This document shows positions 1 through 17,538 of a stretch of 64,000 nucleotides of DNA, in pieces; position 1 is the stretch's first letter, and every line of letters starts with the position of its first letter. The DNA comes from Lachnospiraceae bacterium 3-1 (lineage in GTDB: Bacteria > Bacillota > Clostridia > Lachnospirales > Lachnospiraceae). Both the position numbers and the translations under genes were made by a program. Where the stretch lies: NCBI GenBank assembly GCA_000403255.2, contig KE159594.1, positions 1 through 64,000 on the forward strand, written 5' to 3'. The notes beneath the pieces were generated by a model. It ran no database searches and was not told the origin of the DNA. It saw only the letters and a program-made list of their open reading frames with translations.

Positions 1-101
1 TCCTGCGCCTTTTGCTCCTGCACAAGCTGTCTGCGCCTGTTTTCAAGCTGTCGGATTTCTTCCTCAATGCTCGTGATTTTTTCGGCTTTGGTCTTTGCCA
101 T
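1..101 (-). CDS. DUF3847 family protein (C-terminus outside window)
   Basis: Only the first 33 codons are present. The ATG at 101-99 follows a GAAAGGAGCGATTGACGC leader. The peptide begins MAKTKAEKITSIEEEIRQ and is a charged, Glu/Lys/Arg/Gln-rich helix, as is usual at the start of the small DUF3847 proteins common in Clostridia mobilizable elements. The function is unknown. It is the third gene of the recombinase-TnpW-DUF3847 series, which is a common order next to mobilisation genes. Confidence 0.6.
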   Translation of the reverse strand, partial: MAKTKAEKITSIEEEIRQLENRRRQLVQEQKAQ

Positions 102-179
102 GCGTCAATCGCTCCTTTCGATTTTTGTATGGAATGGATAGGATAGGAATGGATTTTTACAGACAATCGGCTTCCCGTT

Positions 180-356
180 TTATTCCTGCTTATCGGCAAG
201 TATCATTTTCAGCAGCTTGTCGCGGAATGTTTCTGTGCCGCTGTGGTTGAAAAACAACTCCGCAACAATGGTCTGCCCGTCCCTGTGTGTCGTGATGATA
301 CCGTCGGGCTTTCGGGGTGGGGCGGGCGTTTCTTTCTTTTCTGTCAATTCTGTCAA
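180..356 (-). CDS. TnpW-family transposon protein, TTG start
   Basis: A 58-residue protein ending in the TnpW-type segment around IITTHRDGQTIVAELFF and a helix ending KMILADKQE. A long upstream open frame overlaps the recombinase gene, but no ATG there has a ribosome binding site. The TTG at 356-354 lies about 7 nt after AAAGGAG, so I take it as the start. TnpW accompanies TnpX recombinases of the Tn4451 family; its biochemical role is not settled. It lies 79 nt downstream of the recombinase stop. A second TnpW in this window also uses TTG. Confidence 0.7.
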   Translation of the reverse strand: MTELTEKKETPAPPRKPDGIITTHRDGQTIVAELFFNHSGTETFRDKLLKMILADKQE

Positions 357-435
357 TGGGTCGCTCCTTTCTGTGGGTGCAAAAAAGGAATTTCCCGTAT
401 TTGGAAAATCCCTCTCTGCTGTCGGCTGTTCGGTT

Positions 436-2283
436 TTATTGTGCGGACATGGCGGCGGCTTGCGCCTTTTTCCTTGCCCGGTATTCCCGCGCCTTGATAC
501 GGTCATACTCCCGTTGCTTTTCGCGGTTTCTGGCGCGGTAGGCTCTGGAATATTCACGGTGGTAAGCGCGGCTCTTTTCCTTTTTCGCTTCTTCGATTTC
601 CTCCCGCATTTTTTTGATTTCCTGCTCTGTCGGCTCGGCAAGCTGTGTCAGTTCGTTCTCAAATTTGCCGATATGGTTGAAGTATATCCCGATATGCTGT
701 ATGGCGTATCTCGCCCGTTTCTGGTCGCGCTCATGCACTTCAATCCTGCTGATAAACTCGTTGAGAATGGCGGGGGTGAGTTCGGCAAAGTCGGCGTATC
801 GTTCTGTCAGTTTTACAAACCTCTGCGCCCGCCCTCCTGCGTTCTCAAAAGCGGATAACTGCTCTTTGATTTCCGCAAGTTCCTCTTTCAGCATATAATA
901 TTCTTCCGAATACTTCCGCGACATCTGCTCATAACGGTCTTGCTCAATTACTCCCAGTGCGTTGTCCTCGTACAGCTTATCCAGAACCTTTTCGATTTGT
1001 TCAAGCCGCGTTGTGATTTGCGGTACGCGCTTCTGCTGTTTCTTCGTCCGGTCGGTCTGCTGTACGTCAAGGCTCTTTTTCACTAAGGCTTCAAAGTCTG
1101 CCCGGTTGCTGATGGAGTATTCCGCGATTTTTTTCAGCACGTCCGAAACGGTCTGCATGAGTAAATCCGCGTCCATGATGTGCGGGGAATGGCACTTCGG
1201 GTTTCTGGCTTTTCCCTTGTGGTACTCACTGCAATAGGCGATATGCCGCCTGCCGCCGTTCCTGTAATCTATCCGTATGTGCATTTTTGCGCCGCAGTCC
1301 TTACAGAAAAGCAAGCCCGACAAGGGGTGGATTTCCCCGTCCCCGTTTGGTCGCTTGACGGGGGCATTTTCCAAAATCCGCTGTACGTTCTCAAAATCGG
1401 TGCGGTCAACAATCGGCTCATGCACGTTTTCCGTAATATGCCACTGGCTTCGGTCTACATAGTGGTTTCGTTTGTCGCGGAAATGCTTTGTGGTCTTGAA
1501 GTTGACCACATCTCCGCAATACTCCTGCCGTGTGAGGATACGGGTCAGGGTCGCCTTATTCCATTTGTAGCGGTTTTCCTCGTTCAGCGTCTTGTTTTTA
1601 CAAGTTCCCCGCCCCCGGTCTTTCATGTAGAAAGTGGGCGTTGGAATTTGTTCGTTTTTCAGATATACGGCGATTTGGTTTCGGTTCTTCCCGTCCAGAA
1701 ACAGGCGGAAAATCAAACGGACAACTTTCGCGGCTTCTTCGTCAATCAACCAAAAATCCTTGTTGTCGGGGTCTTTTACATATCCGTATGGGGCTTCGGT
1801 AGCGATTGGCTTGCCGCTTGTCCCCTTTGTGCGGATACCCGTTTTTACTTTCTTGCTGATGTCGCGGGCGTACCACTCCGACATGATATTGATGAACGGC
1901 GCAAACTCCAACGTGTCGGGCTTTTCGCTGTCTATCCCGTTGTTTACCGCGATAAAGCGCACGTTGTTCCGTCTGAAAATCTCCATAGCGTTTCCCACTT
2001 GGAGATAGTCGCGCCCCCAGCGGGTCATGTCTTTCATAATGCAGACACCGATTTTTCCGTTTTCCACGTCCTCAATCATGCGGGAGTAAGCGGAGCGGTC
2101 AAAAAACCTGCCGCTTTCGTCATCGTCAATGTAGTGCCGGATATTGGTCAATTTTAGCTGTCTGGCATAGCTTTCCAGAAATTTCTTCTGGTTCTGTATG
2201 GAGTTGCTTTCGCCGCCGTCCCTGTCCTCGTCCCCCACGGATAAGCGGGAGTAAAGGGCTGTGATTTTGCTGTAATCATTCAT
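436..2283 (-). CDS. Large serine recombinase, TnpX/TndX type
   Basis: A 615-residue site-specific recombinase that cuts and rejoins element ends through a serine-DNA intermediate. The N-terminal resolvase domain has the YSRLS motif with catalytic Ser15 and the conserved MTRWGRDYLQVG segment near residue 90. A recombinase domain, a zinc ribbon with CKDCGAKM and a following Cys pair, a coiled coil and a very basic C-terminus follow. The start at 2283 is chosen because AGGAGGG lies 7 nt upstream; a TTG further upstream lacks a site. It sits about 55 bp from the element edge, as expected for an integrase gene beside its att site. Confidence 0.92.
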   Translation of the reverse strand: MNDYSKITALYSRLSVGDEDRDGGESNSIQNQKKFLESYARQLKLTNIRHYIDDDESGRFFDRSAYSRMIEDVENGKIGVCIMKDMTRWGRDYLQVGNAMEIFRRNNVRFIAVNNGIDSEKPDTLEFAPFINIMSEWYARDISKKVKTGIRTKGTSGKPIATEAPYGYVKDPDNKDFWLIDEEAAKVVRLIFRLFLDGKNRNQIAVYLKNEQIPTPTFYMKDRGRGTCKNKTLNEENRYKWNKATLTRILTRQEYCGDVVNFKTTKHFRDKRNHYVDRSQWHITENVHEPIVDRTDFENVQRILENAPVKRPNGDGEIHPLSGLLFCKDCGAKMHIRIDYRNGGRRHIAYCSEYHKGKARNPKCHSPHIMDADLLMQTVSDVLKKIAEYSISNRADFEALVKKSLDVQQTDRTKKQQKRVPQITTRLEQIEKVLDKLYEDNALGVIEQDRYEQMSRKYSEEYYMLKEELAEIKEQLSAFENAGGRAQRFVKLTERYADFAELTPAILNEFISRIEVHERDQKRARYAIQHIGIYFNHIGKFENELTQLAEPTEQEIKKMREEIEEAKKEKSRAYHREYSRAYRARNREKQREYDRIKAREYRARKKAQAAAMSAQ

Positions 2284-2337
2284 GTGCATACCCTCCTGCG
2301 TCAATATAGGTGTTGCTTACAGTTAAGATTATGCACC

Positions 2338-2703
2338 TCACCGGGCGCTGCCGTATTCCGTTCCATGCCGGAACTTCTTGGCGTTCTTGGCTTTAAAATA
2401 TACCAAAAGCCTTAAAGCGATGCCGCAGCACACTCCGATCAACAGGTCTGCTGGATAAAAACTCGGCAGTGGATTAGCAAACAAACCTTCCATCCCCGCC
2501 ATGACCTCCATCATCTTTGCGGAAGCGTCCTGCCCCGGCGATACCCGCCACAGGCACGCTATCTTGTCACAGAAATATCCGGCAAGCGCATAGGGGAGAT
2601 TCATCAGGACAAGTTTCTTTTTATCTATGTTCCCGGTCTTTGCCTTGAGCTTTTCAGGAATGGATTTTAAGTCTTTGGCTATGCCGTTTATGATATTGCT
2701 CAT
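2338..2703 (-). pseudogene. virD4: VirD4/TraG coupling protein, N-terminal fragment
   Basis: This 121-residue piece matches the N-terminal membrane part of Gram-positive VirD4-type type IV coupling ATPases: two hydrophobic segments (KLVLMNLPYALAGYF and ADLLIGVCCGIALRLLVYF) and then the conserved HGTEYGSAR sequence that normally continues into the ATPase domain. It stops at that point because a serine-recombinase element is inserted there. The ATG overlaps the PcfB stop codon as ATGA, so the two were translationally coupled. Without its nucleotide-binding domains the fragment cannot drive transfer, so the conjugative element is disabled unless the insertion excises. Confidence 0.85.
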
Positions 2704-3176
2704 AGGCTCTGCCCCCTGTCCTTGTTTTTCTCCCGGCTCCGTTCCCGGTTCTTGTCCTGCGACACTGCGTCCTTGAAATGGTTCAGCTTCTCCCGCAGGG
2801 AAACCCTGCCTTTCTTTTTCTCATTACCATAAACAAATTCTTTGAATGCCTGTGCCACCGCATCGGCATCCCTGCCCTTAAAAAATACCATGTACTTGGG
2901 CGGAACTGTCGTCTTGTCTTTTTTTATGGCAAAATCAACATTGTACTTTTTTGCCACACGCTCAAAAGACTTGATGTTGCCGTCCGTGACTTCGATAGAC
3001 GATGCCCCCACGCCCTCGCCAATGAGCTTTTTCACAGAAGTTTTTCCATGCGTTCTCTGTGCTTTCTGCTTACGGTGGTTCAGGTACATCTTCATCGCCG
3101 CTTTCAGCACGTTGGCGTCCAGTTTTGCAGTTTTAATCACAAGGGCAATCGTTTTCTGTGTTACTTCCTCCTGCAT
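2700..3176 (-). CDS. PcfB-like conjugation protein (DUF3801)
   Basis: A 158-residue soluble protein of the DUF3801/PcfB family, which acts with the VirD4-like coupling protein in recruiting the relaxosome in Gram-positive conjugation (known from pCF10). The conserved core runs from QKTIALVIKTAKLDANVLKA through IGEGVGASSIEV to KYMVFFKGRDADAVAQAF; the last 30 residues are a charged tail. The start at 3176 has AAGGAGG 8 nt upstream; a longer frame adds 12 residues without a site. Immediately upstream of virD4, with an ATGA overlap, as in intact elements. Confidence 0.85.
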   Translation of the reverse strand: MQEEVTQKTIALVIKTAKLDANVLKAAMKMYLNHRKQKAQRTHGKTSVKKLIGEGVGASSIEVTDGNIKSFERVAKKYNVDFAIKKDKTTVPPKYMVFFKGRDADAVAQAFKEFVYGNEKKKGRVSLREKLNHFKDAVSQDKNRERSREKNKDRGQSL

Positions 3177-3291
3177 GAAGCACCTCCTTGTTATGTTCCT
3201 GAGAAATCCCATGCACTAAGGGGGAATCCCCCGGCAGATAATGTCATAGACAATCTTCACTTTAAAATACGCCATACTTCCCCTTCCCACC

Positions 3292-3310
3292 TCTGGACAT
3301 CGTGTCCAGA
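3292..3310. promoter_or_regulatory. Palindromic site, copy 1 (8-bp arms)
   Basis: TCTGGACA-tcg-TGTCCAGA, a perfect 8-bp inverted repeat around 3 nt, immediately after the stop of the 3316-3978 gene and before the pcfB leader. No T-tract follows on either strand, so it is not a typical terminator. A near-identical 24-bp block recurs at 5285-5308 in the same conjugative element. It is a candidate binding site for a dimeric protein such as the element's ParB or XRE regulator. Confidence 0.5.
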
Positions 3311-3315
3311 AGTTA

Positions 3316-3978
3316 TTATTTTTCATTAAAGCAGTAGATTGTGTGCAGGTTAGCAGACAGCTCATTGCCCGTATACCCCACATCATCAAACAATAATGCC
3401 TGGAACAGCACATCCCCCACACCATCAAGCAGCACAATCCTCTGTTCCGGCTCCGTAAGGTGTCCGTATTCCACCCCATCCGAAACAACGGATTTCCTTG
3501 CCGCTTCACAATGGGTAAACAAGCCAAGAATATATTTGTTTGACATGATAAAGGCGTAGGTTTCCTGCCCGTCATGGGTCATGCGGTATTTCCCCGCCTC
3601 CCCCTCCGGGAGCGTAAAAACACACCGCACCGTTTCCAGGCAAAGCCCGCTTTCATAATCTGGCTGCAGCCGCTTTTTGTACCGCTGCACCCTTGCGTAA
3701 ATTCCCTCCCGGTCTATAACGGAATGGGTACGCTTAAACTGCGGCTTTTTGCAGAGCATATCCAAATCCATATATACATTGTTGATAATGGTTTTCTCTG
3801 CGTACTGCCGGAATGACTTGAGCCTTAACAGCCATGCAAGCACTTCGTCCAGCTTTTCCTCCGATGTGATAAACTGAAAAGGCTTGCCGCCAAACTCCAG
3901 CCTGTCAAACATAAGTGGGCAGCTCCCCTTTTTCGCTTCACGCTCCATTACCCTCCTGACATCCCGTAGTGATTCCAT
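3316..3978 (-). CDS. Conserved protein of conjugative element, unknown function
   Basis: A 220-residue soluble protein, not recognised. The start at 3978 has GGAG 7 nt upstream; an in-frame ATG 42 nt further up lacks a site. The N-terminus is basic and charged, there are no membrane segments, and the C-terminal half contains a folded-looking stretch around MSNKYILGLFTHCEAARKS. It lies between the small unknown genes and pcfB, in the same direction, and is likely part of the transfer or maintenance operon. A terminator-like hairpin (4022-4063) separates it from the next upstream gene. Confidence 0.6.
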   Translation of the reverse strand: MESLRDVRRVMEREAKKGSCPLMFDRLEFGGKPFQFITSEEKLDEVLAWLLRLKSFRQYAEKTIINNVYMDLDMLCKKPQFKRTHSVIDREGIYARVQRYKKRLQPDYESGLCLETVRCVFTLPEGEAGKYRMTHDGQETYAFIMSNKYILGLFTHCEAARKSVVSDGVEYGHLTEPEQRIVLLDGVGDVLFQALLFDDVGYTGNELSANLHTIYCFNEK

Positions 3979-4021
3979 ATCTATCTCCTTCCCGTTTCCT
4001 GGTGCACTGGCCGGAAACAAT

Positions 4022-4063
4022 AAAAAAAGGGCAGCTACAAATCTACTGACTTATAACTGCCCT
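4022..4063 (-). terminator. Rho-independent terminator
   Basis: Read on the minus strand, AGGGCAG and CTGCCCT form a stem (4057-4063 with 4028-4034) followed by a run of seven T. It lies downstream of the 4205-4573 gene and would end the transcript of the two small upstream genes. Confidence 0.7.
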
Positions 4064-4126
4064 CACGCTGTTCTCAATTTATCATTTTTTTAACACAGGG
4101 GTCTTCCACCCCCGTACCCCTGGAAA

Positions 4127-4172
4127 CCTTGCCGGAAATGTGATTGAAAAGATAATCACATTTCCAACAAGG
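4127..4172. other. Long perfect hairpin, 12-bp stem plus outer stem
   Basis: GGAAATGTGATT (4134-4145) pairs perfectly with AATCACATTTCC (4154-4165) around an 8-nt loop. Beyond a 2x2 internal loop, CCTTG (4127-4131) pairs with CAAGG (4168-4172). There is no T-tract. It could be an RNA regulatory element or a DNA hairpin such as a transfer-origin component; its position just downstream of the 4205-4573 gene decides nothing. Confidence 0.45.
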
Positions 4173-4204
4173 CTGAAAACGCCACCCGCCACGCTCTGGC
4201 AGGC

Positions 4205-4573
4205 TCATTTTATTTCTATTCCCGCCGCTTCTGCGAAATGCTGCTTCCTGCCCATAAGCTCATTCTGCTTTTCTCCCGGTAACTGCCTGAAAATATCATC
4301 ATAATCAATATCCTCTATCTTCATTTCCCTCGCAAGCATAATGAGCTGTGTATGCAGCCATTCCTCCCACAAATCTTCAAACAGCGCCCTGCTGTCCGTG
4401 AAAGTAAAATCATTTTCAAAGCCTGTTGGCGGCGTGTAATATTGCAGCTTTACAAAGCCATATCTGCCGGCATCAACCACCACAACGTCCACATCTTCCA
4501 GCTCCGCAAAAGCATCCGCCACTCTCCGGCATTTTTTCCGTTCTTCCTCTGTAATGTATGCCTTTTTATCCAT
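4205..4573 (-). CDS. Conserved small protein of conjugative element, unknown
   Basis: A 122-residue acidic soluble protein, not recognised. The N-terminus (MDKKAYITEEERKKCRRVADAF) looks helical, followed by a beta-rich part with VVVVDAGRYGFVKLQYY and a C-terminal helical part. AAGGAG lies upstream of the ATG, with AAGGG nearer. It follows the 4602-4925 gene by 28 bp in the same direction, so the pair is probably one transcript from the 4981-5009 promoter. Confidence 0.55.
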   Translation of the reverse strand: MDKKAYITEEERKKCRRVADAFAELEDVDVVVVDAGRYGFVKLQYYTPPTGFENDFTFTDSRALFEDLWEEWLHTQLIMLAREMKIEDIDYDDIFRQLPGEKQNELMGRKQHFAEAAGIEIK

Positions 4574-4601
4574 AAGCCCTTCATCTCCTTACACATATTT
4601 T

Positions 4602-4925
4602 CTACGCCCCTGGCAGAATGTCAAGCCTTGCCATCCTCTCCAAAAGGGTTTCATCCGGCTCAAACCCCCGCAAAAGGGAAGTGTCAGCGAAGATAAACCT
4701 TTCTTTATATTGGTTCATAATATCCATCAGCATCAGGAAACATTCATGATGATAGAGGAAACCGGCAAGGCAGAGCAGTTCACTGTCCTTTAATTCCCCT
4801 GCCCTGAAATAATTTTCAAAATCATAACGGTCTGCAAATTTACAGAAAGCCAGTTTTTCCAGCAGCAATGCTTTTCCCATTCCATCCAGTTCCTCATATC
4901 TTTTCCGTAGTTCATTTTTACCCAT
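4602..4925 (-). CDS. Small helical protein of conjugative element, unknown
   Basis: A 107-residue protein, not recognised. It is almost entirely predicted helix, with a hydrophobic stretch around LLCLAGFLYHHECFLMLMDIMNQY. It is the first gene after a sigma-A-like promoter and is divergent from the XRE regulator at 5039, so it may be controlled by that regulator. Similar short unknown genes sit at this place in other Clostridia conjugative elements. Confidence 0.55.
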   Translation of the reverse strand: MGKNELRKRYEELDGMGKALLLEKLAFCKFADRYDFENYFRAGELKDSELLCLAGFLYHHECFLMLMDIMNQYKERFIFADTSLLRGFEPDETLLERMARLDILPGA

Positions 4926-4980
4926 CCTGTTGTACTCCTTTATCCTTTAATCTCCATTTTTGGTAACTATAACCATCTCC

Positions 4981-5009
4981 ATTATAGGAGCATAATAGAA
5001 CATATTCAA
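4981..5009 (-). promoter_or_regulatory. Sigma-A-type promoter
   Basis: On the minus strand TTGAAT (5009-5004) and TATAAT (4986-4981) are separated by 17 bp, about 55 bp upstream of the ATG at 4925. It lies in the 113-bp divergent spacer shared with the XRE gene. Confidence 0.6.
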
Positions 5010-5038
5010 GCAAGGAATGGAGGGAAATATCGCAAATT

Positions 5039-5263
5039 ATGATTAAATTCGACAAACTTTTTCAAACTTTAAAGGAAAATGGGATCAGCCAGTACAGCCT
5101 TTATACCCGCCACGGTGTCAGCCGGTCACAGATCCAGCGGCTGAAAAATAACCAGTCCGTCACCACCCACACACTGAACATGATACTGAATATCTTAGGC
5201 GAGGGCTTTTCCCTGAATGACATCGCTGAATTTACACCGGATACAGAGCAGACGAAAGAATAA
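5039..5263 (+). CDS. Small XRE-family (Cro/CI-type) DNA-binding protein
   Basis: A 74-residue protein that is essentially one helix-turn-helix: GISQYSLYTRHGVSRSQIQRLKNN with the recognition helix in the second half, then a helix ending ILGEGFSL. A GGAGGGAAAT site lies upstream of the ATG. It is divergent from the small minus-strand operon and convergent with repA. Proteins of this size usually repress their own or a neighbouring promoter, and the divergent promoter is the obvious target. Confidence 0.75.
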   Translation: MIKFDKLFQTLKENGISQYSLYTRHGVSRSQIQRLKNNQSVTTHTLNMILNILGEGFSLNDIAEFTPDTEQTKE

Positions 5264-5286
5264 ACTGCTCTGTTTTTTTCGCCGCC

Positions 5287-5305
5287 TCTGGACATTGTGT
5301 CCAGA
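5287..5305. promoter_or_regulatory. Palindromic site, copy 2 (8-bp arms)
   Basis: TCTGGACA-ttg-TGTCCAGA, matching the site at 3292-3310 except for one base in the centre. The identity extends to the flanks (CC before, AGT after). It lies between the XRE stop codon and the repA stop codon. No T-tract follows. Confidence 0.5.
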
Positions 5306-5311
5306 AGTCCG

Positions 5312-6394
5312 CTAAGTGATTCCTTTTTCCGCCCACCCGCCGCCATACATATCGTGCTGAACCTCCTGCTGGTAGTAATGGCTCATGGTTGAGGGCGCAT
5401 TATAAAGGGCGGTGATCAGGTATGCCCTGATGTTGGTAATCTTTGTTGTGGTTTCCTTCATACAGCCCATGACATATTCCACATGGCCGCTGTTCAGCTT
5501 CAGGAAGCGGGATTTCACAAGCTCGTAAGGGTAATCCTCCCCGTTGATGCGGATTGTCCTGCGTTTCACACACACCACATCGCAGACGGTTTCATAGATT
5601 TCCTCGTACATCTCCTTTTCCCCATACTGGCCATACTTTATGTGGTGTTCATATTCCAGATTTTTACGGATCAGCGCCATATATGCGCCTGTTTCATCCA
5701 TCATATCAATCGTATCAGATTTTCCCTGTGTTCCAGCGCTATCCACATTCTCCACGGATTGATTGATGGGATTGGGATAACTCATATCAATATAGTTCTG
5801 GTCAATTTGGTTATAGTCAGTATAATTAGGGTCTGGTTTCCCGACTTCTTGAAGTTGGTTTTCCCGACCTCTTGAAGTCAGCTTTTCCGACCTGCTGAAA
5901 TCGGTTTTTCCGACTTCTTGAAGTCGGCTTTCCTGACTTCTTGAAGTCGGTTTTTCCGACCTCTTGAAGTCGGTTTTCCCGACTTCTGTGGAAACATCAG
6001 CGTTACAAGGCTCTTTTCTGCCCGCATCTATAACAAAATTCTTCACATAAATAATATCCGGTTTGCCAAGCCCCCGGCGTATTTTCTCAACAAGCCCTAT
6101 CCCTTTGGCTGCATCCAGCTCCGCAAGAACCTTTACCGCCTTTTCCTTGCTGCATCCTAAATCTTCCCTGATGTTATCTATTGTGTATATGATATACGCC
6201 CGGTTTTCATCATCCAGCCACCCGTTTTTCATGGAAAGCGACATCCGGTCAAGCATCAATCCATACAGGAGCTTAGCATCGCTGCTAAGCCCCTTGAAAC
6301 GCTCGTCTTTTATCAGCAGGCGGGGAACACGGTAAAAAGAAAACTGCTCTGCTTCAACGCCATAGTAATAATCAAATCTCAATGGCCCGCTCAT
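5312..6394 (-). CDS. repA: RepA-like replication initiator with internal iterons
   Basis: A 360-residue protein of the RepA_N/DUF6017 type found in Tn1549-like conjugative elements. The N-terminal winged-helix part covers roughly residues 10-120 (VPRLLIKDERFKGLSSDAK through CSKEKAVKVLAELDAAKGIG). Residues ~138-190 are a low-complexity linker of 23-residue repeats, followed by the C-terminal domain (YGQYGEKEMYEEIYETVCDV and NIRAYLITALYNAP). The ATG follows AAAGGAGGCGGTAAGA. In this family the origin often lies inside the gene, and the linker DNA here is an iteron array, so the protein probably binds its own coding sequence to start replication of the excised circle. It is 14 nt downstream of parB in the same operon. 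Confidence 0.85.
   Translation of the reverse strand: MSGPLRFDYYYGVEAEQFSFYRVPRLLIKDERFKGLSSDAKLLYGLMLDRMSLSMKNGWLDDENRAYIIYTIDNIREDLGCSKEKAVKVLAELDAAKGIGLVEKIRRGLGKPDIIYVKNFVIDAGRKEPCNADVSTEVGKTDFKRSEKPTSRSQESRLQEVGKTDFSRSEKLTSRGRENQLQEVGKPDPNYTDYNQIDQNYIDMSYPNPINQSVENVDSAGTQGKSDTIDMMDETGAYMALIRKNLEYEHHIKYGQYGEKEMYEEIYETVCDVVCVKRRTIRINGEDYPYELVKSRFLKLNSGHVEYVMGCMKETTTKITNIRAYLITALYNAPSTMSHYYQQEVQHDMYGGGWAEKGIT
5838..5992. repeat. Iteron array, 23-bp period, inside repA
   Basis: Six full units and one partial at a strict 23-bp spacing: the shared G of CCGAC falls at 5843, 5866, 5889, 5912, 5935, 5958 and 5981. Each unit carries the near-palindrome CCGACTTCTTGAAGTCGG. Because 23 is not a multiple of 3 the repeat is read in three frames, which gives the protein a 23-residue repeat (EVGKTDF...). 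This is typical of an initiator-binding origin. Confidence 0.8.
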
Positions 6395-6408
6395 TCTTAC
6401 CGCCTCCT

Positions 6409-7284
6409 TTACTGCTTACTCTGCCATTCCTCCAAAAGCTGGATAATGATACCCTCTATATCGTCATTGGAATAGTCTTCCGAAAAATACCTGCTGATCT
6501 TATCTCCTTTGATCGTTACTTTTCTCTCTTTTGGCTTTTCCTCTGCCAGTATCAGCCTGACCATCGCCAGTGTCAGCTCCCCGTTTTTTCCGTACTCCTT
6601 CAGCTTTGCCGCCTGTGCGCTGGAAACCGATGCGCCCGTTTCCTGAAGAATAACGGTTACATACTGCTGCTGTTCTTCTGAGAGGAAAGAAATGTCAACG
6701 CCCTGCGCTATCCCTATCTTCTTTGTGTCCACCATGCCAAGCAGCTCGTCCGAGAGCCTTGCAAGCCATACATACCTCTGCACAGTCTTTCCGCTCTCCC
6801 CGGCAGCTTCCCCCACTTCGTCAAGGGTACTGCCACCCTTGCTGCCCTGGTGCTTCATCGCTTCGTACTTCATGGCATAAGCCTTTGCCTTCTCACTCGG
6901 TAAAATGTCCTCCCGCTGGATATTGGAATCCACCATGATGATCGTAGCTTCATCGTCCGTATAGTTCCTGACAATGACAGGCATCGTGTCAAGCCCTGCT
7001 TTTTCAGATCCCCGTTTCCTACGGTGTCCGGCTATGATCTCATAGCCGCCTCCCTCCCTCGGCCTTACAATTCCGGGAACAAGCACACCATACTTGCCGA
7101 TACTCTCCGTGGTTTCCTCCATCTTTTCATCATCAAGGACACGGAACGGGTGTCCTCTGAATGTATGTAAATCCGCCAGCTTCGCATGGATAATCTGCTC
7201 CCCCGACGTGTTTTCTGCGCCGCCAAATAAATCATCAAAGCTGTTCAGCCTGACTTTTGATGCGCTCCCTGCCTTACTGCCCAT
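6409..7284 (-). CDS. parB: ParB/Spo0J-family partition protein
   Basis: A 291-residue centromere-binding protein. The ParB N-terminal nuclease-like fold shows HPFRVLDDEKMEE, the GHRRKRGSEKAGLDTMPVIV motif and the NIQREDILPSEKAKAY motif; a helix-turn-helix follows (LDEVGEAAGESGKTVQRYVWLARL). The start at 7284 has GGAGG 9 nt upstream, and the gene overlaps the parA stop by 11 nt. Together with parA it should stabilise the excised or replicating form of the conjugative element. The palindromes at 3292 and 5287 are candidate binding sites. Confidence 0.92.
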   Translation of the reverse strand: MGSKAGSASKVRLNSFDDLFGGAENTSGEQIIHAKLADLHTFRGHPFRVLDDEKMEETTESIGKYGVLVPGIVRPREGGGYEIIAGHRRKRGSEKAGLDTMPVIVRNYTDDEATIIMVDSNIQREDILPSEKAKAYAMKYEAMKHQGSKGGSTLDEVGEAAGESGKTVQRYVWLARLSDELLGMVDTKKIGIAQGVDISFLSEEQQQYVTVILQETGASVSSAQAAKLKEYGKNGELTLAMVRLILAEEKPKERKVTIKGDKISRYFSEDYSNDDIEGIIIQLLEEWQSKQ

Positions 7285-8059
7285 TGCCAAGCACCTCCTT
7301 CGTCAAGGACTGGTACGCCCCGGCAACCTTGCCTTTCGGGTCATGCTCATAAATACTGACACCCTCTGCGGACGTCTCCGCCGCCCTCACCGACATCGGT
7401 ATGCTGTTCTCGAATATCCGCACCCTGCTTCCGTAGGTTTCGATAAGCAGCGCCGTAATATCCCTTGCATAATTGGTGCGGTTATCTACCATCGTCAGCA
7501 GAATGCCTTCAATCTCCAGTTTCGGGTTAATCTGCCGCTTTACCTTGCCTATGGTCTTGATAAGCTGTTCCAAGCCTTTCACGGGCAGGTATGCCGCCTG
7601 AACCGGAATGAGTATGCTGTCGGCACAGGCAAAGGCATTTATGGTAATCATCCCCAAAGAGGGCATACAGTCGATTAAAATGTAATCGTACCCGTCCTTT
7701 AACCTCTCCACATAGGAGCGCAGCATAATCTCCCGGCTCATCACATTCACAAGGGAAACCTCCAGACCGGACAGCTCAATGTTCCCCGGCATCAGGTCAA
7801 TGCCTTCCTCATGCTTCAAGATACCGTAATCCGGCTCCATTTCTTCATCGTTGATAACCTTTTCCAATACGTTCGCAAGGGTGACATCCAGCTTGTCCGG
7901 CTCCGTGAAGCCTAAACTTGCGGTCAGACTCCCCTGTGCGTCCGCATCTATTACCAGGACTCCTTTTCCCTGCTTTGCCAGCCCGATCCCTAAGCTGCTC
8001 GTTGTGGTGGTTTTTCCCACTCCGCCTTTCTGGTTTGCTATTGCTATCACTTTACACAT
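7274..8059 (-). CDS. parA: ParA-family partition ATPase
   Basis: A 261-residue Walker-type ATPase. It has the deviant Walker A KGGVGKTTTTSSLG near residue 11, Walker A' DADAQGSLTASLG, and Walker B YDYILIDCMPSLGMITINA. The start at 8059 (MCKVIAIANQ) has GGAGG 9 nt upstream; a longer frame has no site. It is transcribed ahead of parB. The parA pseudogene at 58.7-59.0 kb is a diverged relative from another element. Confidence 0.93.
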   Translation of the reverse strand: MCKVIAIANQKGGVGKTTTTSSLGIGLAKQGKGVLVIDADAQGSLTASLGFTEPDKLDVTLANVLEKVINDEEMEPDYGILKHEEGIDLMPGNIELSGLEVSLVNVMSREIMLRSYVERLKDGYDYILIDCMPSLGMITINAFACADSILIPVQAAYLPVKGLEQLIKTIGKVKRQINPKLEIEGILLTMVDNRTNYARDITALLIETYGSRVRIFENSIPMSVRAAETSAEGVSIYEHDPKGKVAGAYQSLTKEVLGNGQ

Positions 8060-8075
8060 AGTTTTATTCCTCCGT

Positions 8076-8258
8076 TTAGTTAGATTTTTCTTTGATGTTG
8101 GCTTTCTGCACTTCCACATAAGCCCGGTAATACCTGTTTGTACCCTTGTTCCGATACAGCTCGGAAACTTCCGTCACAGCCACTTTGGGCTGTCTTTGCA
8201 GAATCCTCTCGAACCACTTAATATCATTCTTCGTTCCCATCAGTCGAATTTTCAGCAC
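8076..8258 (-). CDS. DUF3970 family protein, GTG start
   Basis: A 60-residue protein starting KIRLMGTKNDIKWFERIL and containing ELYRNKGTNRYYRAYVEV, typical of DUF3970 proteins found beside partition genes in Clostridia elements. The GTG at 8258 sits just after GGAGAGGAAAC and overlaps the end of the upstream gene by 35 nt. The function is unknown; its size and basic charge would fit a nucleic-acid-binding or accessory role in the par operon. Confidence 0.7.
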   Translation of the reverse strand: MLKIRLMGTKNDIKWFERILQRQPKVAVTEVSELYRNKGTNRYYRAYVEVQKANIKEKSN

Positions 8259-8742
8259 GTTTCCTCTCCATTTCTGCAAGGATTTCCTCAATAGACCTCT
8301 GCTTTTGGCAGTATTCCGGGTAACGGAGTTTAATGCCTTGCCAGAAGTACAGTGCGTAGCCGCAGCAGAAAATATCGCTTACGGAATACCCCCTGCACTC
8401 GCCAATCTGCTCGTCCTTGCGCTTATAGTCATCAACGCTCGGCGTTCCGTCCGTGTAAAGGTTAAAGGCAAGCCTTACCACCTTTACGCTGCCGCTGGTC
8501 TGCCAGCCCTGATGCAGACACTCTGTTTTGACACACCCGGACTTCATATCGTAAATCTGGCTGAAATGGTTCCTCGTGTCCTCAGAAATACCGAGAATGT
8601 AAATCAAAGCCTTGTGATAGCAGTCCTGATACCTCGCCTGTTCCAGTTTTTCATAATAGAATCTCTCATGTTCCTCGTTTGCAAAAACCATGTGTGTGTT
8701 GTTGGCGCTCTGCGCCCCTGCTCTTAACGCTGTGTTGTTCAT
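8224..8742 (-). CDS. DUF6075 family protein
   Basis: A 172-residue protein with FANEEHERFYYEKLEQARYQ, CHKALIYILGISEDTRNHF and SVSDIFCCGYALYFWQGI, the pattern of DUF6075 proteins in conjugative elements of gut Firmicutes. AAGGAGG lies 7 nt before the chosen ATG. There is no signal peptide. It is the first gene of the DUF6075-DUF3970-parA-parB-repA minus-strand series. The function is unknown; association with plasmid-like maintenance genes is the only clue. Confidence 0.7.
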   Translation of the reverse strand: MNNTALRAGAQSANNTHMVFANEEHERFYYEKLEQARYQDCYHKALIYILGISEDTRNHFSQIYDMKSGCVKTECLHQGWQTSGSVKVVRLAFNLYTDGTPSVDDYKRKDEQIGECRGYSVSDIFCCGYALYFWQGIKLRYPEYCQKQRSIEEILAEMERKRAENSTDGNEE

Positions 8743-8781
8743 ACCTGAACCTCCTTCATTAAAGATATTGAATAAAAAAAG

Positions 8782-8848
8782 GGAACAAACCCAGAAATAG
8801 GGTCTATTCCCAAACATCAAACAAGGGAAAGCACTTTGCTTTCCCTTG
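8782..8848. terminator. Tandem hairpins between NTPase gene and DUF6075 gene
   Basis: CAAGGGAAAGC (8822-8832) and GCTTTCCCTTG (8838-8848) form a perfect 11-bp stem with a 5-nt loop just past the NTPase stop codon. A second hairpin (GGGAA...AACCC with GGGT...TTCCC, 8782-8812) lies beside it. T-tracts are short, so termination is likely but not certain. Confidence 0.55.
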
Positions 8849-8854
8849 CAGAAC

Positions 8855-10606
8855 TTATATATAGACTTTTACCACAATATCTTTAAATCTGTTAGCCTTT
8901 GTGTACTCTGGACGTTCAGCCATAAATGCCCTTACATCCTCTCTCGACACCGTTAAGGTACAGAAGTAAATATAGGGTTGTCTAATTCCTCTAGTTGTTA
9001 ATAGCCGCCTGTGTATCCTTATCGTATATAAGGCACGAATCCTATAAATATCAGCCTCTTTTTCCATATTTACAACATTCTTATTAATAGTTTCAAAGTA
9101 CCCCATAACCTGAAAAAAAGTGTCTAACCGCTCTAGTCCATAATTATTGAACGGAGATATATATGCTGGATATTTTTCTCTAAACATCCCAAGCATTATG
9201 TCTTGTACCACCGCATGCATATGAAATGTATCCATATTTCCGATATCCTGTAGTGTCAATCCGACATACGATTTTAAATTATCCCCAACCCATTCCCTTA
9301 CAAAATAATTTTCCATCTTCACAATATTTTCAAAATATATTTTATCTCTCGCCCAGCCTATTGCATCTTCTGGCTTCACCATCTCAGCAACCATTAAAAT
9401 CCAGCTAATCATATCCCGCAAATTATCCGGTAGCATATAACTGCTTCCATCTGTCTCCGGCCAAAAACGCATTCCTGTCCTTTCATAAATTAAATCCAGC
9501 ATGGATAACGTAAATCCCCGCTTCTTATATCCTGTCCCATTTGACTCTGACTGTTCAACTAAATCGTCCTTTTTGTCAAAACCACCAATATTCCAGGAAT
9601 CTATAATATTTTTCTCACTATCAGCTTCCCTATATATAATCTGCACGTCTTCAAACCTTTGCACTTTCGGAAGATAAATTCGTCTTTGTCTGGGAATCAA
9701 TTTCGATACATACCGTTCTGCCATTGTCTGGACTTCCTTGTTTAATTGAGAATATATTTCATTATCCTTGTTCTTGTAAATCTCCTGAAATTCCTTCAGA
9801 TTTTTTTCCCGAATGCATAATTCTAATTGCTCTATTTTTACACTGATCACAATACATACATGTGGAATAATTAAGTATTTTCGAATCTGTTCTGTCATCT
9901 TATATGCATTTGCGCTACATAAATCTAAATCATCAATTGCAATGATTAATTGTTTTTTTCCATCACGTGTTTCCATAAAATTCAAATAATCTTTTATTAA
10001 CTCTGTCAGTTCTTCTTTCAGTTTTGTACTCTCCCCTAGTTTCGTAAGCTTACTGATATTCCCTTCATAATCAAACTCATCATCCAACATCTGCTTTTGG
10101 TTATTGATCAAAGAAACATAGCGGTAAACCTTTTGGAAGCGGTCAAGCAGTTCTTCTCTTGTTCTCTCATCTGCACGTTGGTTATCATTATTATAGCAAT
10201 CATAAAAGTTTCGAAAAATCTTTGCAAGCACAATGTCTAAAACATTATGAACATCATCAAATAATGATGGGTCAATCAAAATCGGTTCCACAAAATATGT
10301 ACTTTCAACATTTTTACAATTCAAAAAAATTTCCTTATTTGAATTATGATATATGGCATTGACAAAAGTCATCATAACACTGCTTTTTCCTTCTCCCCGT
10401 TCCCCACAAAATGCGATAATATTATTCTCATAATCCTGTGATTTCCAGAATTCTTTTTTATCTCTCACTTCTATTGAGGTTCCAACAATTCTGTCTAATA
10501 TATTTGCAGCGCGTTCGTATTGTTCAATAAAAAGATCATCTTTTGTTATTTCATCTTTTACTGCTATCTTAAACTCGTTCCCTTTTGTAATTGTAATTTT
10601 CGCCAT
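8855..10606 (-). CDS. KAP-like P-loop NTPase, candidate defence or signalling ATPase
   Basis: A 583-residue soluble ATPase. Walker A is GERGEGKSS (residues 68-76) and Walker B is LIIAIDDLD (Asp225/Asp226), the spacing and motif style of STAND/KAP-like NTPases. Residues 300-583 are helical with no recognised effector domain and no membrane segments. The gene is clearly AT-richer than the par operon, which suggests a separate transfer. GGAGAAAGC precedes the ATG. Proteins of this kind occur in anti-phage islands, usually with or fused to an effector; none is recognisable here. A partner may be missing, the C-terminal half may be the effector, or the role may be unrelated. Confidence 0.55.
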   Translation of the reverse strand: MAKITITKGNEFKIAVKDEITKDDLFIEQYERAANILDRIVGTSIEVRDKKEFWKSQDYENNIIAFCGERGEGKSSVMMTFVNAIYHNSNKEIFLNCKNVESTYFVEPILIDPSLFDDVHNVLDIVLAKIFRNFYDCYNNDNQRADERTREELLDRFQKVYRYVSLINNQKQMLDDEFDYEGNISKLTKLGESTKLKEELTELIKDYLNFMETRDGKKQLIIAIDDLDLCSANAYKMTEQIRKYLIIPHVCIVISVKIEQLELCIREKNLKEFQEIYKNKDNEIYSQLNKEVQTMAERYVSKLIPRQRRIYLPKVQRFEDVQIIYREADSEKNIIDSWNIGGFDKKDDLVEQSESNGTGYKKRGFTLSMLDLIYERTGMRFWPETDGSSYMLPDNLRDMISWILMVAEMVKPEDAIGWARDKIYFENIVKMENYFVREWVGDNLKSYVGLTLQDIGNMDTFHMHAVVQDIMLGMFREKYPAYISPFNNYGLERLDTFFQVMGYFETINKNVVNMEKEADIYRIRALYTIRIHRRLLTTRGIRQPYIYFCTLTVSREDVRAFMAERPEYTKANRFKDIVVKVYI

Positions 10607-12751: not shown

Positions 12752-14362
12752 TTATTTATATTTTTTTAGATTTTTTATTTTTTCTTTATAAACTATATCT
12801 AACTGGGATTTTCCATATACATATATAGCTTCAATCCATTCATCCACCACTTCTTTGGTAAGGCTTTCCATTTTTCCAGTATATTCAGCCTCTTCCTGAT
12901 GTGAACTGCTTTCTTCCTCACGCTGCTCTCTTTCATATTGTATCTTTTGAAGCTGTTCACTTAACCTGCTTTCTTCCTCCCTCAATGCCCCTACTCTATT
13001 TAAGTAAATTCTCCGCTTCATCTGATTCAGTTTGTATTGCTCATAGAGATACTGCTTTTCCCTCTTTAATGAGTCCTGTTTCTGCTCCAACACCATGCAT
13101 ATTTTTTTCATCTCTTTTACCGAAGAGCGTTTCGATGGCCTGTTGTCCATCGTTGAAAAAAAAGCCTCTGATTTCTGATTTTTTTTAACCAGAATCTCTT
13201 GCCCTAATTCCTGATTGATACGTTCCAGAACAGCCGCTTCCAGTTCCGGCTCGCTTAATCGTTCACCGATACATCGGCTTCCCTGCTCATATGCCGACTT
13301 TTTACAGGTAAAGCATGGTGTACTTTTACGTCTGAGCCGAACCAGGCTTCTTTTGCAATTCCCACACCGCAATTTGCCCAACAATACGCTCTCTTCTTTC
13401 CGGTTATGTTTTTTCCCTTTCTGCTGTCCATTGTTCTTTATCACCTCTGATGCCAGCAAAAACTCCTGCTCTGTAATAATCGCCTCATGCATATCCGGGA
13501 CACATATCTGTTCTGCATCCGGCATCTGCCGGAAATGACTGCCCCCGACCTCTGTCACTTTGGTTCTCCCATTTACAACAGTCCCCATATAAACTTTGTT
13601 CTGAAGAACTTTCCGAACCTTCCCACAATTCCAGTACCCTTCTCCGTCCATGATATGGTACTGCTGTTTCTCCCGGTTCTTATACCATCCTGGCGTTGGT
13701 ATTTTTTCCTTATTTAATATTTGTGCTATTTTTCCAGTTCCGTATCCCTCGCAGGCCAGCCCGAAAATCCGCCTGACATACTGCGCCGCCACTTCATCCA
13801 CTGCCAGGACTTTTTTATTCTCAGAAAACTGATAGCCGAACGGCGCTCTGGGGCCGATAAAGTCTCCTCTCTTTCTCCTTACCAGTAACGATGAACGCAT
13901 TTTTTCAGAGAGATCCTTGCTATACATATCATAAAGAAGGCTCTTGAAAGCAATCTCAATCCCCCCGGTCGTCCCTATGTGGTCGTTACTGTCGTATCCA
14001 TCGTTGACCGCAATAAACCGGACTCCCATAAAAGGAAATATCTGCTCCAAGTAATCTCCCACTTCCAGATAATTTCTCCCAAACCTGGAAAGGTCTTTCA
14101 CAATGATACAGCATATCTTCCCTTCCCTGACCAGCGACAACATCTCTTTAACTGCCGGCCGTTCAAAATTTGTTCCACTGTATCCATCGTCCACAAATTC
14201 CAATGGCTGTATGGAGGGATAAAGATGTTTGTCATGAACATACCGTGTGATCAGTTCCCTTTGATGGCTGATGCTGTCACTCTCTGCTTTTGCATTATCC
14301 GATATTACATCCCCATCCTCTACGGAAAGCCTGAAGTATTCAGCCAGAAATTTCTCTGCCAC
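12752..14362 (-). CDS. Large serine recombinase 1 (third of tandem trio)
   Basis: A 536-residue recombinase. The resolvase domain has YFRLS with catalytic Ser13, DDGYSGTNFERPA and DLSRFGRNYLEVGDYLEQIFPF. A recombinase domain, a zinc ribbon (CGNCKRSL and a later Cys pair) and a coiled coil follow, with a shortened basic C-terminus ending KNLKKYK. The start is GTG at 14362, after GAGGATT, and overlaps recombinase 2 by 23 nt. The stop codon lies 4 nt from the terminal repeat. The three differ from each other, so they are not recent duplicates, and may act together as in other multi-recombinase elements. Confidence 0.92.
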   Translation of the reverse strand: MAEKFLAEYFRLSVEDGDVISDNAKAESDSISHQRELITRYVHDKHLYPSIQPLEFVDDGYSGTNFERPAVKEMLSLVREGKICCIIVKDLSRFGRNYLEVGDYLEQIFPFMGVRFIAVNDGYDSNDHIGTTGGIEIAFKSLLYDMYSKDLSEKMRSSLLVRRKRGDFIGPRAPFGYQFSENKKVLAVDEVAAQYVRRIFGLACEGYGTGKIAQILNKEKIPTPGWYKNREKQQYHIMDGEGYWNCGKVRKVLQNKVYMGTVVNGRTKVTEVGGSHFRQMPDAEQICVPDMHEAIITEQEFLLASEVIKNNGQQKGKKHNRKEESVLLGKLRCGNCKRSLVRLRRKSTPCFTCKKSAYEQGSRCIGERLSEPELEAAVLERINQELGQEILVKKNQKSEAFFSTMDNRPSKRSSVKEMKKICMVLEQKQDSLKREKQYLYEQYKLNQMKRRIYLNRVGALREEESRLSEQLQKIQYEREQREEESSSHQEEAEYTGKMESLTKEVVDEWIEAIYVYGKSQLDIVYKEKIKNLKKYK

Positions 14363-16019
14363 AATCCTCGCCCCTTTCCGCTAACTGGTTCATCAGATAC
14401 TCACACTCATTCCGGAAACGGAATCTGATATGGATTCTTTTATCTTCATATACCTCCACCTTTTCCAGCAGGCTTACCGCCATATCCCTTGTAAGCTCTT
14501 TTGCATCCCTGAAATTCAGGAAGACTTTCAGCCAGCGGTTTTCCCCGCTCATACATTGCTTAAAATGATTCAGTTCGTTCTGCTTGCCACTCAATTCCGT
14601 TTCCAATTCAGAAATCTTTCCTGTATATCTTTCTTTCGCGGTTAAATATTCGTCTTTTGTCAAGATTCCCTGTTTCATATCTTCATAAATACTGGTTTTT
14701 AGATATACATATCTTTGCAGTTCATCCCTTGTCTGCTCCGTTTCCTTCTTTTTCATCCTGTAAGCCGCAAGCTGACTGTCCGATTTTTTCATCCGATCCA
14801 ACAGGCTGTCGGCTTCTACGGCCAAATCTATCTGCAGCTTTATCTGCTTCAGTACCATATCAAAAATTCTATGATCCACAATGGACGATGTATTGCACTT
14901 TGCCTGAGAATGTCCATAGGCGGAGCCACAATAAAAATAATACCGCACCTTCCCGTTCTCCACCTCTTTATTCCTCCACATCGCATGATGGCAGATCCCG
15001 CACACCAGAATCCCTTTCAGCACATTCCCATATCCCAGCCTGCCCTGCCTGTCCTTCCATACTTTTCGGTTCTTTTCCCGAATTTCCTGTATTTTCTGGA
15101 ACGAATCCCTGTTAATGATTGCCGGATGTGCATTTTCTATAACTTCCCACGCAGCTTCTTCTTTTTTGCCCCGCCTTTCCCTGGAATAAATGGAACGGTT
15201 ATACTTTCCCTGCACCAAATCCCCGGCATACGCCCTGTTATATAGAATCCGGCTGACTGCTTCCGGCTGCCATAAGATATTACTGCATTCCTTATACTTT
15301 TTCACTCCATGTTCCCCCGCATATCTGCTGGGGGACGGGATTCCCTCCTGGTTCAGTATGCGGGCGATTTTATAAGCGCTTATCCCGTCTGTCTTCATTT
15401 CAAAAATTCGCCGGACAACATCAGCCGCCGGTTCATCTACCACATAATGATTGTTTTCCAAAACATACCCATATGGCGCCTTTCCGCCTATGAATTGTCC
15501 CTGTTCCTTTTTCACCCGGAACGCTGACATGATTTTATTCGATATATCTTTTGAATAATAATCATTTGCCAGGTTTTTAAATTCCGTGATCAATTCCTTT
15601 GGAGGAAAAATCTCTCCTGCGCTGTCAAAATGGTCATTGACTGCAATAAAACGGATTCCTAAAAATGGAAATATTTTCTCCAAATAATCCCCTGCTTCCA
15701 GATAGTTCCTTGCAAACCGGGAAAGGTCTTTCACAATGATGCAGTTAATCCTGCCGCATTTTGCGTCCTCCATCATTCGTTCCCATCCCGGCCTTTCAAA
15801 ATCAGTCCCTGTCTGCCCATTATCCATATAAGTTTCAACGACTTTCATCTTTTCAAATTGTTTTACAAATTCCAATAAATACTCAAGCTGGTTATCTATC
15901 CCGTCTGCACTTCTGCCTCCATTATCTTCATCGGACAGCCGGACATACAGCCCTGCTTCTATGGCAGGCGGCTTAAGTTGGCCTACAGTTTTCTCCTGCT
16001 TTCTACTCGTCCTTGCCAT
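14340..16019 (-). CDS. Large serine recombinase 2 (second of tandem trio)
   Basis: A 559-residue recombinase with YVRLS (catalytic Ser29) after an N-terminal extension of ~20 residues, NGQTGTDFERPGWERMM, DLSRFARNYLEAGDYLEKIFP, a zinc ribbon (CGICHHAM...CNTSS) and a coiled coil with a C-terminal IHIRFRFRNECEYL strand. The start at 16019 has GGAGGG 5 nt upstream; a longer frame lacks a site. It overlaps recombinase 3 by 17 nt and recombinase 1 by 23 nt, so translation is coupled. Its catalytic residues look intact. Confidence 0.92.
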   Translation of the reverse strand: MARTSRKQEKTVGQLKPPAIEAGLYVRLSDEDNGGRSADGIDNQLEYLLEFVKQFEKMKVVETYMDNGQTGTDFERPGWERMMEDAKCGRINCIIVKDLSRFARNYLEAGDYLEKIFPFLGIRFIAVNDHFDSAGEIFPPKELITEFKNLANDYYSKDISNKIMSAFRVKKEQGQFIGGKAPYGYVLENNHYVVDEPAADVVRRIFEMKTDGISAYKIARILNQEGIPSPSRYAGEHGVKKYKECSNILWQPEAVSRILYNRAYAGDLVQGKYNRSIYSRERRGKKEEAAWEVIENAHPAIINRDSFQKIQEIREKNRKVWKDRQGRLGYGNVLKGILVCGICHHAMWRNKEVENGKVRYYFYCGSAYGHSQAKCNTSSIVDHRIFDMVLKQIKLQIDLAVEADSLLDRMKKSDSQLAAYRMKKKETEQTRDELQRYVYLKTSIYEDMKQGILTKDEYLTAKERYTGKISELETELSGKQNELNHFKQCMSGENRWLKVFLNFRDAKELTRDMAVSLLEKVEVYEDKRIHIRFRFRNECEYLMNQLAERGEDCGREISG

Positions 16020-17535
16020 ATGTACCCTCCTTTTTTCCATCGCTAACAGACAGGCTGCCTGTATGCCCTGAGAAAGTTTCCCCGTGAAATTCTTCCAACA
16101 TGTTTACAGATGCGTGAAATTCATCCTCATATTTGAAACGTATTTCTATCCTGGGATAGCGCTCCCCTTCCTTCTTTTCATAAACCAATATCTGCTCAAT
16201 CAGAGAAACCACAACTTCCCTGGACAGGTATTCCAAATATCCATATTTCTTAAACCCATTGATCCAACCGCATGTATCTTTCTCTCCATCGGCAAAAAAC
16301 GCCTTCTCCACTTCCATTGCTTCCAGCGACTGTTCTGCTACCTTGGTACGTTTTTCATAGTTTTCTTTTAACTCCAGATATTCTTCCTTCGTAATCAGCC
16401 CATCTTTGTAATCCTCATATAAATCCAGGCGCAAATGGTTATATTTCTGCGCTTCTTCCTTTTTCTTTGTAATCTGACGATTCCTTTTTTCTATCTTTCC
16501 TTTCTTGATCTGCACATCTTCCAGCTTATCCAGAATCCGTCCTAAATCCGTCACATTCTTAATCTGATAATTGAACAGCTTCAGTACGCTTTCCTCCAAA
16601 GCCTCCGCATTGATGCTGTGGGAACTGCAAATATCCTTATTTCCTTTATGGCTCCCACATACATAATAAATAAATTTCCTTTTTCCAGATGGAACCGTCT
16701 TTCTGACCATGTTTGCGCCGCAATCGCCGCACTTTACAACACCAGACAGATAATATACTTTCTCTTTTGCGGTTCCTGTCCTCGTATCCATCTGTAATTG
16801 CTCCTGTGCATTTTGGAAATCAACGGACGGGATAATCGCTTCATGGGTATTTTCCACCTGGCTCCATTTGCTCCGGTCACGCTTCACTTTCTTCTTCACT
16901 TTATAATTGGGCGTGGTTTCCTTCCCCTGAACCAACGTCCCGGTATAAACGGGATTCCCTAAAATGCGGAGTACATGCATATGTGTCCACTGGCTTTTCA
17001 GTTTCTTCTTAAAGCCGGTATAAAACGCACTGCCATTCTCTTTCTTATAGTCCATTGGCGTAAGGATGCTCTTCTTATTCAGCTTCTCCGCTATTTTATA
17101 CGCATTACTGCCCTGCAGATACATCCAGAAGATAGACCGCACCACTTCTGCAGCCTCTTCATCAATCTCCAGCTTATTTTTATCTTCTTCTGACTTCCGG
17201 TAGCCGTAAGGGGCAAAGGGGCCTACAAAATCCCCCCGTTTCCTTTTCACTTCCAGGTTGCTCCGGATTTTAATGCTGATGTCTCTGCAGTATGCGTCGT
17301 TGATCAGATTTTTGAATGGAATGATAATGTTATTTGTCTGAGCATCATTGGCTATACTGTCATAGTTATCATTGACTGCAATAAAACGGACACCCAAGTA
17401 TGGGAATATTTTTTCAATATATTTCCCTACCTCGATGTGGTTTCTCCCAAAACGCGATAAATCCCTTGTTACCACGCAGTTCACTTTCCTTGCTTTAATA
17501 TCCTCTAACATCTGCTGGAATGCCGGACGTTCGAA
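16003..17535 (-). pseudogene. Large serine recombinase 3, 3' part of split gene
   Basis: This encodes everything after residue 64 of the first recombinase of the trio: from ERPAFQQMLEDIKARKVNC through DLSRFGRNHIEVGKYIEKIFP, the recombinase domain, zinc ribbon (CGDCGANM...CSSHS) and C-terminal IEIRFKYEDEFH. It lacks the catalytic serine, which is on the 5' piece at 26600-26791. The frame runs on into the inserted element up to 17601, but those residues (around QKYRYLTSA) are element-derived. Excision of the 9-kb element would restore a ~570-residue gene in frame. Confidence 0.88.
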
Positions 17536-17538
17536 AGC

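Follow-up and report, generated by a model that had tools for sequence, protein, structure and literature searches.

Why should a protein-coding gene carry a DNA repeat whose period is not divisible by three? The question is raised by a repA gene in DNA of Lachnospiraceae bacterium 3-1 (GCA_000403255.2, contig KE159594.1, positions 1–64,000, forward strand; this whole stretch of 64,000 nt is called the window below), in which 23-bp units recur between the two domains of the encoded protein. An earlier note on this DNA had read the repeat as one kept by selection in spite of its cost to the protein, and as support for a replication origin used by the circular form of the element.

The repA array and its carrier

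The gene, its domains and the partition genes beside it are as follows.

5312..6394, minus strand: repA, 360 aa, with a RepA_N domain, a repeat-encoded linker and a DUF6017 C-terminal domain (Pfam)
6116..6340, minus strand: RepA_N winged-helix DNA-binding domain, residues 19–93 (Pfam; PDB by sequence and fold)
6137..6151, minus strand: residues 82–86 (SKEKA), the start of predicted recognition helix 83–93 and the top five-residue predictor of the arms
5339..5701, minus strand: DUF6017 C-terminal domain, residues 232–352 (Pfam)
6409..7290, minus strand: parB (PF02195, 4.6e-19)
7274..8119, minus strand: parA (PF13614, 2e-55)

The Pfam matches of repA are PF06970 (1.8e-28, above the cut-off) and PF19481 (5e-38); a Rep_3 domain is absent, RepA_N and DUF6017 being the sole Pfam domains at E ≤ 0.001. 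The RepA_N domain matches RepA_N chains in the PDB by sequence (E 6e-21), and entries 4pt7, 4pql, 5kbj and 4pta match it in both sequence and fold. All eight Foldseek matches at E ≤ 0.001 were RepA initiator entries also recovered by sequence, one of them a Rep–DNA complex. An AlphaFold2 model of modest confidence (mean pLDDT 52; about 60–83 in ten-residue blocks of the DNA-binding domain), used solely for placing helix 83–93, has helices at 72–79 and 83–93 followed by two strands, and as this order is winged-helix-like we infer that 83–93 is the recognition helix.

The repeat itself lies between the two domains of repA, a central position that is also a trait of pSK41-type rep genes.

5826..5986, minus strand: seven 23-bp units GAAGTCGG-N5-CCGACTTC-NN, candidate RepA boxes of an in-gene origin (repeat finding, nulls, relatives)
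5964..5986, minus strand: unit 1, reading phase 0
5941..5963, minus strand: unit 2, phase 2
5918..5940, minus strand: unit 3, phase 1
5895..5917, minus strand: unit 4, phase 0
5872..5894, minus strand: unit 5, phase 2
5849..5871, minus strand: unit 6, phase 1
5826..5848, minus strand: unit 7, phase 0, right arm degenerate
5746..5827, minus strand: AT-rich stretch immediately past the array, a candidate unwinding region by its position and composition

Tandem Repeats Finder reported 5837–5987 with period 23, 6.6 copies and 82% matches. The seven CCGAC boxes of the earlier note correspond to seven units, but only six are exact (5841, 5864, 5887, 5910, 5956 and 5979), the other being CTGAC at 5933. 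On the plus strand of the window there are four exact pairs of CCGAC spaced by 23 bp in total, all from the repA array, and none of 20,000 mononucleotide shuffles of repA held three or more such pairs (maximum 1). Read in the sense of repA (minus strand), a unit consists of GAAGTCGG, five A-rich bases, CCGACTTC and two further bases, and each is an inverted repeat, a feature absent from the earlier note, with two 8-bp arms converging on an A-tract, so that the array shows the semi-palindromic direct repeats converging on an A-tract that are a trait of RepA_N iterons. Successive units fall in phases 0, 2 and 1, and the protein therefore repeats only after 69 nt; the resulting 23-residue repeat, with its shifting frames, is as the earlier note had deduced (VGKTDFKRSEKPTSRSQESRLQE / VGKTDFSRSEKLTSRGRENQLQE, 17 of 23 residues identical). 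Past the array the AT content is 66%, against 54% for the whole gene. This AT-rich stretch is present across relatives, and in the 83 loci defined below the share of 80-nt segments of the gene that are as AT-rich as the post-array stretch has a median of 1.5% and a maximum of 24%.

From its neighbouring genes the carrier of the array is most likely an integrative conjugative element (ICE). The window holds a DUF3801 (PcfB-like) gene, parAB and serine recombinases, the contig beginning inside the region, and the DNA within about 27 kb of repA in one relative (G028) encodes DUF3801, a serine recombinase and a TraG-type P-loop protein. It is reported that RepA_N genes are linked to serine and tyrosine recombinases (PMC7145576) and that many ICEs carry RepA_N and ParA genes (PMC4701971). 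Several other features of this DNA were recorded. A second contig of the same genome starts with positions 1–9011 of the window at 100% identity, the break falling inside the ORF at 8855–10606, and its next 31 kb, which were compared, hold no further match to the window; the element may be present twice, or the shared 9,011 bases may be an assembly repeat. That ORF encodes a large ATPase whose NCBIfam match to RdrA, a protein of RADAR defence, is weak (7.1e-20; 71 bits, where the cut-off is 600). At 436–2703 the PcfB-like gene is followed by an ORF of 121 aa with no Pfam match and then by a serine recombinase, whereas two other loci have a VirD4-like gene after PcfB; possibly a coupling-protein gene has been split here by an inserted element. 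Three large serine recombinases in tandem (12752–17601) resemble the ‘Serine (Triplet)’ integration module that PMC4701971 describes for some ICEs. The start of the gene at 17835–18388 resembles DUF6017 proteins of Tn1549-type elements (compare L144 and L145), and this gene contains 15/30-bp repeats encoding ENPTLDNPT, a period that is divisible by three. A related element in another genome has a reverse transcriptase gene near its repA (L149, 2422–4299).

Constraint on the DNA of the array

Relatives were compared in two sets. The close set comprises 83 loci, namely the best 80 of 220 relatives from a scan of genome contigs, two viral contigs and the window. Units of 23 bp with a like design were also noted in the viral contigs L122 and L125, where they lie within open frames of 371 and 317 aa, respectively. 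The wider sample comprises 111 RepA_N genes (part of a larger match set together with loci from other searches), of which ten are the same DNA as close loci and four duplicate each other, leaving 97 distinct new genes. Every one of the 83 close loci scored four or more units of the 23-bp array, so that a conserved linker protein without DNA periodicity, which the earlier note had named as the outcome that would count against it, was found in none of them; the DNA period is kept among these loci while the encoded linker changes, as that note had anticipated. A pattern of two units with the arm bases left free, to which the window's own units do not give an exact match, was found in 8 of 392 genomes of the order, and the reversed control gave no match in any row.

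Whether the repeat is under selection as DNA was assessed with a synonymous null in which the protein was fixed and codons were redrawn from local usage (5,000 draws). Lag-23 identity in the window's array was 107/136 (null 56.8 ± 5.8, maximum 85) and complementary arm pairs numbered 40/48 (null 23.0 ± 2.9, maximum 33). Lag-23 identity was likewise beyond all 5,000 draws in nine relatives of several arm classes, and arm complementarity was above all draws in the window and these relatives, with the exception of L078, whose value was reached by 0.02% of draws. Third codon positions were compared where the encoded residue is shared: in 500 same-class pairs from 78 loci with arrays no more than 95% identical (the pairs share loci and are thus non-independent) these positions differed in 10.5% of cases in the arms, 22.9% in the spacers, 41.3% in the N-terminal domain and 42.1% in the C-terminal domain, the arms being lower than both domains in 486 of the 500 pairs. 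The DNA repeat in repA thus goes beyond what the protein requires and is constrained at the DNA level, which bears out that part of the earlier claim. The supposed cost to the protein was not borne out, PMC5703833 describing the corresponding linker of pSK41 as dispensable.

Units were also compared within and between loci in 29 non-redundant arrays. Units of the same index in different loci were more alike than units within a locus in the AAA class (nine loci, 0.836 versus 0.727), the TCA class (seven loci, 0.793 versus 0.689) and the TCG class (two loci only, 0.899 versus 0.823), so that recent duplication is no explanation in these three, and in the CGG class similarity was about equal within loci (0.807) and between them (0.800).

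The number of units in close relatives shifts mostly by steps that keep the frame: seven units are present in 74 of the 83 loci, six plus a half in four, ten in two and four in one, and L067 and L085 hold the frame by means of one 31-bp step. The best local lag was 23 or 46 in 80 of the 97 distinct new wider genes. Fifteen of the 97 failed array criteria that had been set after arrays had been seen, and genes failing them include ones with 17-, 22- or 24-bp repeats or none clear (L017, L021, L226 and L025 have linker repeats of 17, 24, 24 and 22 bp, respectively). Among the 82 distinct wider arrays 55 have 4, 7 or 10 units and 27 have 3, 5, 6 or 9; these 27, together with the half-unit counts and the 31-bp step, led us to drop a strict 3n + 1 rule. 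Tn1549-type DUF6017 genes were rejected as members of the same system, having repeats of 15 or 30 bp and a different N-terminus. With these and the relatives at 17, 22 and 24 bp, a period indivisible by three is not a general property.

Arm sequence and the DNA-binding domain of RepA

The arm bases beside the A-tract vary between loci but are largely uniform within them (CGG, AAA, TCA, TCG and a few others), and in the close loci the linker protein varies along with them. In a nearest-neighbour test over the 83 close loci, with neighbours of less than 97% identity, the arm class was that of the nearest neighbour in 76/83 cases for the N-terminal domain, 40/83 for the C-terminal domain and 28/83 for ParB; of the seven misses for the N-terminal domain, six confused CGG with a variant of it (AGG, GGG or CAG) and one confused CCA with TCA. 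Two loci illustrate this. L054 (TCA) and L057 (AAA) have ParB proteins 96% identical and C-terminal domains 94–96% identical to those of the window (CGG), but N-terminal domains only 84–86% identical, which indicates transfer of the DNA-binding domain and array together. As the unit sequence tracks the N-terminal domain, and not ParB or the C-terminus, domain and array appear to move as a cassette. Linkage alone is insufficient to account for this because the C-terminal side also adjoins the array and yet does not track the arms. Elements resident in one genome showed no avoidance of the same class: 3 of 12 co-resident pairs were same-class (2.7 expected), as were 1 of 17 in a second sample (1.4 expected), with one pair present in both samples (L084/L086, the same DNA as L156/L183) and the two identical copies in the window's genome uncounted. 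Without enrichment for different classes among co-resident elements, there is no sign of incompatibility acting here.

Within the domain, residues 82–86 gave the highest partial correlation with arm sequence of all five-residue segments, given the rest of the domain (0.50; permutations sd 0.027, maximum 0.111, 0/2,000 as high), segments starting outside 76–100 reaching up to 0.225. This Mantel test used 86 non-redundant domains (23 close and 63 wider) less than 95% identical to each other, and it should be noted that it controls for pairwise distance only, related sequences being non-independent. Where the rest of the domain was less than 60% identical, arm identity was 0.661 if residues 84–85 agreed (97 pairs) and 0.409 if they did not (1,091 pairs). 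Among the 83 close loci the terminal arm base is G wherever residue 85 is K (39/39) and A wherever it is T (44/44). Considering residues 84–85 as a pair across the non-redundant cases, DK occurs with CGG in eight of nine, including pWBG749 of Staphylococcus aureus, and with AGG/CGG in the ninth; TTT-type arms accompany NK in ten of 13, pSE48-1 of S. epidermidis being among the ten; and of 18 cases with QK, 17 have arms that end in TG. KK is less regular, with GTC-type arms in two of five (the ATGTC arms of pSK41 and of the gut relative L206) and GTGAA/ATGTA in the three others; L239, which fails the array criteria, has KK with GTGTC. Four triplet rules derived from the close set were applicable to 19 distinct new loci and predicted the triplet exactly for 15 of these; the score was 10 of 13 for loci with domains less than 95% identical to any close locus, and 4 of 7 for those less than 85% identical. 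The association of helix and arm recurs in distant genes, yet as no clean code. The comparison of relatives suggests that the choice between versions of the site is made by a short helix of RepA.

A broader proposition, to which we would give even chances, is that about five residues at the start of the recognition helix set the iteron sequence across Firmicutes plasmids and ICEs, that specificity changes by swapping a cassette of DNA-binding domain and in-gene origin while the partition genes and C-terminal domain are retained, and that the reading frame restricts iteron numbers to discrete steps (4, 7 or 10 for the most part). A literature search of listings and the openings of abstracts, covering few subscription journals, found no helix-to-iteron code for RepA_N proteins. 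Were the sequence of the origin largely fixed by a handful of helix residues, binding specificity would be readable from sequence, and a modular swap such as that described for pPR9 (below) would be a general habit.

Function of the array and comparison with known systems

We consider it highly probable that the array is the RepA box set of a RepA_N-type replicon with its origin inside repA, carried by a likely ICE. Written into repA between the DNA-binding and C-terminal domains, the boxes would each offer 21 bp in which RepA's winged helix reads the two inverted arms, residues 82–86 of the helix largely setting the sequence read beside the A-tract; boxes every 23 bp would then be followed by the AT-rich stretch where opening is expected. 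Binding of RepA, melting, loading of the replisome and use of the origin in the excised phase are the steps that we envisage. The linker protein would be a by-product of the array, which repA may tolerate because the units are open in all three sense frames and copy number in close relatives mostly changes by three.

RepA would still bind the array if, on the integrated element, the site now served regulation or transfer in place of independent replication, a possibility for which there is precedent in earlier speculation, related in PMC7145576, that functions in transfer were acquired by chromosomal RepA_N proteins of conjugative transposons. We regard this as unlikely: the post-array AT-rich stretch is kept across relatives, parAB is present, and according to PMC4701971 replication has a part in maintaining TnGBS1 and TnGBS2, both with RepA_N and ParA-related proteins. 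A role for the units as hairpins, whether in the mRNA of repA or in single-stranded DNA, is very improbable: although arms of 8 bp around a 5-nt loop form Watson–Crick pairs at 74–83% of positions, depending on class, pairing is incomplete in all four classes examined and the arm sequence tracks RepA's helix. Centromeres are often palindromic arrays and parB lies immediately upstream of repA; a centromere (parS) for the adjacent ParB was nevertheless rejected, and has hardly any likelihood in our view, as the site fails to covary with ParB, arm class agreeing with the nearest ParB neighbour in so few cases and differing in L054 and L057 despite their close ParB proteins. A minisatellite from recent tandem duplication, without function at the DNA level, is compatible with the CGG class but not with AAA, TCA or TCG (the last represented by two loci), and with synonymous sites in the arms conserved it is scarcely credible.

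Replication from an origin within repA has close parallels in plasmids. RepA_N proteins are described as the commonest theta initiators among staphylococcal plasmids (PMC5703833), and according to PMC7145576 most of the RepA_N iterons that have been characterised are direct repeats of semi-palindromic form, in which inverted repeats meet at a poly-A tract. The origin of pSK41 of S. aureus has been located experimentally in the centre of rep, where its N-terminal domain binds four Rep boxes, and pPR9 and pSK41 differ over about 500 bp spanning the N-terminal domain and the origin (PMC5703833). Like the window's repA, pSK41 rep has a RepA_N domain, an A-rich spacer between the arms and AT-rich repeats past the array, and its 23-bp units begin at offset 408 from the annotated start, in phase 0, as do those of the window. 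It differs in having four units rather than seven, arms ATGTC/GTGTC rather than GTCGG and a Bac_RepA_C (PF18008) rather than a DUF6017 C-terminal domain, and pSK41 is an autonomous plasmid with an annotated ParM gene. RepA of pWBG749 shares the RepA_N domain and the arm class GTCGG (its helix is KKDKV), but belongs to a plasmid and has four units, a Bac_RepA_C C-terminus and an N-terminal domain about 30% identical. Semi-palindromic iterons that run together at a poly-A tract are also described for another RepA_N initiator, the PLE RepA of Vibrio cholerae, but these lie in a non-coding region whereas those of the window are inside repA. Streptococcus ICEs of the Tn5252, Tn1549 and TnGBS families, compared here by their description in PMC4701971, resemble the window's element in carrying RepA_N, often with ParA, in an integrated state, and episomal replication has been proposed for them; that description leaves an in-gene array unmentioned. 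Since the pSK41 units share gene nucleotide and frame with those of the window, the in-gene origin layout is not a new kind, and by sequence comparison the window array represents one already known from staphylococcal plasmids such as pSK41. What the comparison appears to add is that the arms track the N-terminal domain, with residues 82–86 as the best segment, and that unit number in close relatives moves mostly in frame-keeping steps. The repA array also offers a clear case of a DNA-level function within coding sequence, read in all three frames.
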